Shown: piece by piece, positions 38,239-41,883 of the stretch
Numbering within the stretch: position 1 is the first letter of the stretch
Layout: each line of letters opens with the position of its first letter
From: Zhongshania aquimaris
Lineage (GTDB): Bacteria; Pseudomonadota; Gammaproteobacteria; Pseudomonadales; Spongiibacteraceae
Length of the DNA stretch: 64,000 bases
Reading direction: 5' to 3'
Assembly (NCBI RefSeq): GCF_019312595.1
Contig: NZ_JAHWDQ010000001.1
Coordinates: 1,738,926 to 1,802,925 of the forward strand
The notes under the pieces: model-generated
The model's database searches: none
The model's input: only the letters and a program-made list of their open reading frames with translations
What the model was told of the DNA's origin: nothing
Made by a program: the position numbers and the translations under genes

Positions 38239-38595
38239 TCAGCGATTTAGCACATCATCGCGAACACTTTCTGCTATTTTTGCAACTTCAGCAATATCCC
38301 CATCGCTCACACCCAACTCTTTCAATGTGGCCGCTAGGTTTTCGACCACGGCGTTAAAATGGCCATCATCAATCCCCATCCCCGCATGCGCACCTCGCAT
38401 ATCTCGGCCGGTGTATTCACTCGGGCCACCAAACACCATCGTTAAAAATAATTTTTGCTTGCGCGCCTGCGCGAACATATCGATATTTTCAAAAAATGCT
38501 TTAATTCGATCATCGGCCATAATCTTGTCATAAAAAATATCAACCGCCGCGTCAACCGCCGCCTAACCACCAATTCGTTCATACAATGTTGTCAT
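38239..38595 (-). pseudogene. Group 1 truncated haemoglobin, interrupted by an amber codon
   Basis: Read from the ATG at 38595 (GGAG nine bases upstream), the protein is MTTLYERIGG, then TAG at 38563-38565, then AAVDAAVDIFYDKIMADDRI and the full remaining fold to VRDDVLNR. Total length is 118 codons, the normal size. The amber codon replaces what is usually Gln or Glu in the GG(Q/E)AAV motif; CAG to TAG is one transition. The rest is intact: B10 Tyr (FY, residue 22), FGGPSEYTGRDM, proximal His in MRGAHAGMG. A restart at Met26 would lose helix A and B10 Tyr. Group 1 truncated haemoglobins bind and detoxify NO. Recent decay or sequence error are both possible. Confidence 0.88.
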
Positions 38596-38614
38596 ATTAA
38601 TCAACTCCAGCAAT

Positions 38615-38637
38615 AACATGCAATTTAAATGCATCTT
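38615..38637. promoter_or_regulatory. NsrR-type operator
   Basis: AACATGCAATT-T-AAATGCATCTT is an 11-1-11 imperfect palindrome matching the NsrR consensus (AAGATGCATTTTAAATGCATCTT) closely. It lies between the truncated haemoglobin and the NsrR-like regulator gene. It overlaps TTTAAA (38624-38629), a possible -35 paired at 17 bases with TATAGT (38647-38652) for the regulator, and lies downstream of a possible promoter for the haemoglobin. NO-relieved repression of both genes is predicted. Confidence 0.8.
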
Positions 38638-38687
38638 TAAAAGAGGTATAGTACTCCCACCATTTACCTCAACGCAACCCTCTAACG

Positions 38688-41471: not shown

Positions 41472-41757
41472 TCAGTAAAAACTGCGGTCGCTGGGTGATT
41501 TTTCCCTGTCATTACAACAATTTAACTCGCGAGCCATCATTACACCCATATAACACCCGCCTAAATATTCGGTAATAGATGCGCTAAGTCTTTGTTTTTA
41601 CGTACCCGCCATTCTGTCCAAATGATTAAAAAAACATGTAACAACATTATTTTAGCGACACTACGACGCACGCGGTGTAACCCAATTATTTATTGCTTCT
41701 TCGTATACTGACTACGTCATCAAGACACACACAAAACTTTATAGACGGAGCACTACC
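41472..41757. other. 286-base leader region before two small membrane proteins
   Basis: AT-rich stretch with no gene found. A TATACT hexamer at 41704-41709 is a possible -10 for the small genes that follow, but no matching -35 was found at 17 bases. No repeat of family A or B is present. Confidence 0.4.
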
Positions 41758-41883
41758 ATGACTCAATTACAGCAAGCAGTACTTAACCAAGACACCAACG
41801 TTATCGGCGAATTGCTCGCAAAATACAGCCTACTAGCGATTGTTGCTGTCGGCATTGCATCTTGCTTTGTTAGCTTGATCTAG
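41758..41883 (+). CDS. Small membrane protein, 41 residues
   Basis: Not recognised. It begins MTQLQQAVLNQDTNVIGELL (a polar, amphipathic N-terminus) and ends with one hydrophobic helix, YSLLAIVAVGIASCFVSLI (23-41), with a Cys near the end. GGAG seven bases before the ATG is a good ribosome-binding site. A second small gene of the same design follows 27 bases later with its own AGAGG. The pair is bounded by a hairpin at 42071-42097. Predicted inner-membrane protein; function unknown. Confidence 0.7.
   Translation: MTQLQQAVLNQDTNVIGELLAKYSLLAIVAVGIASCFVSLI

Follow-up and report, generated by a model that had tools for sequence, protein, structure and literature searches.

The window, a stretch of 64,000 nucleotides from Zhongshania aquimaris, carries a group 1 truncated haemoglobin gene, glbN, whose frame is interrupted by an in-frame amber codon at its eleventh position, and which lies back to back with, and divergent from, an nsrR-like repressor gene (Table 1). 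We consider it likely that this is a genuine and very recent loss-of-function allele of an NsrR-controlled glbN, brought about by an ordinary nonsense mutation. What is new here is this allele and its context within the genus only, the pairing of NsrR with glbN being already known.

Table 1. Features of the glbN-nsrR region of the window, followed by the flavohaemoglobin gene of another genome of the genus (G011), whose positions are those of its own locus.
Feature	Position	Strand	Description
glbN, group 1 truncated haemoglobin frame	38239..38595	-	118 codons, then TGA; broken by a stop at codon 11
In-frame TAG, glbN codon 11	38563..38565	-	Glu codon in 13/13 genus orthologues
12-base tandem quasi-repeat, codons 12-15 and 16-19	38539..38562	-	Units alike at 11/12 bases in the window
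Met26, first ATG, GTG or TTG past the stop	38518..38520	-	No Shine-Dalgarno-like pairing
Ribosome-binding site of glbN, GGAG	38605..38608	-	9 bases ahead of the ATG; -5.9 kcal/mol with the anti-Shine-Dalgarno sequence
NsrR-type palindromic operator, AACATGCAATTTAAATGCATCTT	38615..38637	.	Between glbN and nsrR; pattern match
Probable glbN promoter, TTGCGT-18-TACTAT	38648..38677	-	Inferred by eye from upstream sequences
nsrR-like Rrf2 repressor gene, 141 aa	38688..39113	+	Rrf2 (PF02082), 112.6 bits; best NCBIfam match NsrR, under its cut-off
Flavohaemoglobin ORF of G011	L152:237-1535		NsrR-type site at 1501-1521

The minus strand of the glbN frame translates as MTTLYERIGG*AAVDAAVDIFYDK...VLNR*, and no second lesion was seen over its colinear 118 codons. 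When read through, the frame matched positions 1-120 of PF01152 in a profile search, scoring 70.7 bits across one internal TAG, as against 72.6 bits for the intact orthologue from genome G005; owing to that TAG, however, it does not provide an open reading frame over the whole domain. In the PDB, the G005 orthologue was closest to the group 1 haemoglobins 3aq5 to 3aq9 (E 3.3e-36 for 3aq5) and cyanoglobins. Its alignment to the Tetrahymena group 1 haemoglobin allowed us to place Tyr22 and His70, both of which are kept in the window's gene, and which we take to be Tyr B10 and the proximal His F8, respectively, in terms of helix names. These results, together with the open orthologues described below, bear out the preliminary description of this locus as a truncated haemoglobin gene that is full length save for TAG at codon 11, with its B10 tyrosine and proximal histidine intact. 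Judging from its family and the neighbouring genes, the protein would bind haem and carry out NO dioxygenation, and it is probably a small haemoglobin that protects against NO. The same genome holds two further relatives of truncated globins, of 143 and 154 residues, the second without a Pfam match at E 0.001. This 154-residue protein (L095:1321-1785, contig C8) is weakly related to truncated globins, with 40% identity over query residues 2-61, and by eye it has a signal-peptide-like start; downstream of its gene lies that of a 202-residue protein with a membrane-anchored look, also by eye.

A close glbN orthologue was found in 14 of the 18 genomes of the genus, including the window's own, and thus in 13 of the 17 others. 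First, all 13 of these orthologues are open over the 118 codons, three of them beginning with GTG at the glbN start position, so that the alignment with close relatives proposed in the preliminary description revealed no frame damage among them. Second, none of the 13 shares the in-frame TAG and, among the matches listed, which come from 57 genomes, only the window's gene has an internal stop. Third, codon 11 encodes Glu in every one of these orthologues, and Glu or Asn in four outgroup sequences, namely, the next best of 20 loci. Since the relatives hold Glu rather than Gln at this position, they do not indicate the single CAG-to-TAG transition that had been proposed as the origin of the stop.

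We fitted a branch model to the 14 genus glbN sequences with the stop codon masked. The dN/dS of the window branch was 0.049, versus 0.044 elsewhere, with a 2dlnL of 0.03 against a single ratio; the sister branches, under the same test, gave 0.069 (G006), 0.087 (G016), 0.038 (G008) and 0.126 (G007). Along the profile for the window branch, a dN/dS of 0.16 costs 3.76 and one of 0.18 costs 4.49 in 2lnL, which sets a 95% upper bound of about 0.165, itself approximate because no parameter other than the branch length was re-estimated at each value. If constraint was wholly dropped with the appearance of the stop, this bound implies that the stop is no older than roughly one eighth of the branch. 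Therefore, as the rest of the gene is still constrained, the stop is young if it inactivates glbN. The gene thus has a frame that is disrupted when compared with intact orthologues, but neither the relaxed constraint nor the further lesions of an established pseudogene. Unrelaxed constraint is expected of a recent loss, and equally of a gene that still works; nevertheless, among the explanations originally put forward, very recent loss fits best, given the single lesion and a branch dN/dS that is not raised.

Full constraint, a lone substitution-type lesion and 13 open orthologues out of 13 are also what would be seen if the stop were a consensus error, or a mutation acquired in laboratory culture, the wild gene being intact and ordinary. 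We regard this as rather unlikely, for three reasons. First, the lesion is a substitution and not a homopolymer indel. Second, when 57 non-overlapping frames of the window were matched to ORFs of 80 aa or more from the relative G006, glbN alone had its coding part clearly broken by an internal stop. Stops with respect to the G006 ORFs appeared in six of these frames, glbN being the sixth; four others were not counted as broken, since their stops fall upstream of the start of the window's own ORF, and the remaining one is a weak match. The notion of an assembly with many broken frames was accordingly discarded, although this result argues against a generally poor assembly and not against one error. 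Third, five codons past the stop, at codon 16, the gene has another private change, which a single wrong base would not explain. As for the weak match, a 104-residue ORF of G006 aligns with positions 41572-41880 of the window at 60% identity, with two stops and no Pfam family, and it may be a gene in decay or no true gene at all.

At columns that are invariant in the other 13 proteins of the genus, the window's sequence differs at only two, namely, the stop and codon 16, where Lys is replaced by Ala. This replacement is private within the genus, involves more than one base, and sits inside the tandem quasi-repeat that directly follows the stop, whose two units are alike at 6-9 of 12 bases in the 13 genus orthologues and at 6-10 of 12 in the four outgroup sequences, as compared with 11 in the window. 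The near identity of the tandem units suggests that codon 16 may have acquired its new sequence by copying from the adjacent unit. Ala is also present at codon 16 in the four outgroup sequences.

The preliminary description had also offered readthrough or suppression of the stop. Translation past the amber codon, by readthrough or suppression, at a level that yields a useful amount of full-length globin would agree with codons past the stop that are as constrained as in the relatives, and with a stop that is placed early, at a position where the related proteins under comparison have Glu or Asn. However, the translational apparatus and the relatives speak against this explanation, which we find very unlikely. 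First, a search with RF00005, in which 150 of 151 candidates were scored, gave 38 tRNA genes in the window's genome, and the suppressor that the preliminary description suggested looking for did not appear, as none of the 38 has a CTA anticodon (ARAGORN, run on 30 loci plus 8 other stretches); this set may be incomplete, given that tRNA-Ala(TGC) and tRNA-Ile(GAT) are not part of it. Second, the gene of release factor 1, prfA, is present (547 bits) and has no internal stop. Third, TAG is in normal use, as the 56 matched frames that end in the window terminate in TAA (31), TAG (15) or TGA (10), with glbN and one doubtful frame included. Fourth, the TAG is not shared by any genus orthologue, and the internal stop is confined to the window's gene among the matches listed. 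A globin that is still made, with useful amber readthrough in the species keeping selection on the downstream codons, and with the stop constitutively damping an NO-induced gene, is in our opinion highly improbable.

During the tRNA search we came across a tRNA-like gene (L137:101-189, contig C5:570113; RF00005 52.9 bits) whose anticodon loop is far above seven bases, and which ARAGORN assigns to Val, with anticodon TAC. It has no DNA match in the 17 other genomes of the genus, and may be a tRNA of a mobile element or one with an insertion. We rejected this gene as a suppressor, since its anticodon loop, inspected by eye, holds no CTA.

Translation may also restart at Met26, which would produce a 93-residue globin devoid of helix A and Tyr B10. 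This is the longest frame that remains, and on its own it still scores 43.1 bits against PF01152. However, the predicted pairing with the anti-Shine-Dalgarno sequence is -0.7 kcal/mol at Met26 versus -5.9 kcal/mol at Met1, and 78% of 208 internal ATGs from 31 chosen genes of the window, with a median of -2.4 kcal/mol, pair at least as well as Met26. Moreover, codon 26 is ATG in five of the 13 genus orthologues, and the product would lack Tyr22. We therefore find such a restart scarcely credible: the preliminary description was right about its cost, as Tyr22 would be lost, but the restart itself is not supported.

Both the ribosome-binding site and the operator beside the NsrR switch are intact, as had been noted at the outset. 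The operator, AACATGCAATTTAAATGCATCTT, is near the NsrR consensus gATGyAT-(N5)-ATrCATc, as given by Rodionov et al. (PMC1274295). Immediately upstream of this operator there is a promoter-like TTGCGT-18-TACTAT element and, by eye, several of the nearest relatives have like hexamers at equal spacing. The repressor belongs to the Rrf2 fold family, and its top NCBIfam match by E-value is NsrR, with 141.8 bits, which is under the model cut-off of 182. Three Cys, arranged as C-x4-C-x5-C, occur in the window's repressor and in each homologue from the 16 genomes displayed, and their role is presumably cluster binding; by homology, the protein would be an NO sensor. The nsrR gene is intact and under constraint, with a dN/dS of 0.033 in the window's gene versus 0.071 in the other sequences. 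Of the 16 genomes in which a homologue occurs, this estimate took in 12, leaving aside G002, G004, G009 and G010 as the most divergent.

The operator pattern, allowing for up to one mismatch, adjoins glbN in all 14 genus genomes with a close glbN, which is a measure of conservation and not an independent find, since the pattern was taken from those same upstream sequences; the backward control pattern gave matches in four of the 18 genomes, one in each. At this threshold, the pattern occurs at two places in the window's genome, namely, the glbN-nsrR region and the point where a sensor-kinase-like frame meets a response-regulator-like one, the latter place being taken as a chance match rather than an NsrR target. 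Throughout the genus, 10 further places were listed outside those adjoining glbN, one of which, in G005, overlaps the glbN operator. The neighbours of four of these 10 places were inspected, that is, those in the window's own genome, in G011, in G010 (the perfect one) and in G003. In both G010 and G003 the perfect site was rejected as an NsrR target, as it lies inside a coding frame with no evident link to NO.

Four of the 18 genomes of the genus (G001, G011, G014 and G015) have no close glbN, their matches, where there are any, having 30-38% identity and being set aside. It thus seems that the loss of glbN is tolerable in this genus. The repressor gene was found in three of these four genomes, G015 giving no match by DNA search. 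In G011, the sole place with the operator pattern is a perfect one, and it overlaps the extended 5' end of an ORF with globin, FAD-binding and NAD-binding domains, that is, a flavohaemoglobin. If translation of the flavohaemoglobin starts at Met38, as its sequence suggests, the site ends 76 bases upstream; the best site upstream of the nsrR-like gene of G011 itself has two mismatches. Given a perfect predicted site ahead of a flavohaemoglobin gene in a genome without a close glbN, the repressor may have switched its target in this species. In the window's genome, the only match to PF00042 is a single-domain globin of 153 residues, and not a flavohaemoglobin. NnrS (PF05940) had no match in this genome, and its control matched nowhere either, so that this negative carries no weight.

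Taken together with the family assignments, these data lead us to propose that glbN and the NsrR-type Fe-S repressor would form a small, NO-induced detoxification unit. The repressor would occupy the promoter region that both genes share until its cluster is damaged by NO, after which glbN would be transcribed and its product would oxidise NO to nitrate. In this strain, the stop at codon 11 would cause the release of a 10-residue peptide, and no globin would be made, while the repressor, the operator, the promoter and the remaining codons would have had too little time to decay. If real, the loss of an NO-detoxification globin would have been caught at its first step, with its repressor and operator still there. 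The genus would then provide a small natural experiment on the fate of a repressor with few targets once the main one is gone, which includes the possible change of target to a flavohaemoglobin in one species.

A narrow literature search, mostly without subscription journals, found no published report of an interrupted glbN beside nsrR. The closest known system is that of Legionella pneumophila, where, according to Rodionov et al. (2005; PMC1274295), the glbN-lpg2536 operon is predicted to be the sole NsrR target; a like statement appears in Gardner 2012 (PMC3820574). Both cases share a truncated (cyano)globin, which in Legionella is the sole predicted target, and the operator consensus is near that of the window's operator; yet the Legionella gene shares its operon with a ferredoxin reductase gene, whereas the window's glbN is interrupted and diverges from an adjacent nsrR. 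Rodionov et al. (PMC1274295) describe NsrR orthologues as absent from the Pseudomonadales that they examined, with which our results are not in conflict, since NCBI places Zhongshania in Cellvibrionales, Spongiibacteraceae. The NsrR-hmp system has the same type of repressor and operator ahead of an NO-detoxifying globin gene, as at the perfect site of G011, but the only PF00042 match of the window's genome is a single-domain globin and not a flavohaemoglobin. With respect to the Tetrahymena haemoglobin 3aq5 and the cyanoglobins, the alignment of 3aq5 with the orthologue from G005 spans 115 ungapped residues and puts Tyr22 and His70 where they are expected, while the window's gene differs in its stop at codon 11. 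Finally, bacterial pseudogenes recently formed by a single nonsense change have one lesion, a dN/dS that is not yet relaxed and intact surroundings, and from these the window's glbN shows no difference of kind.
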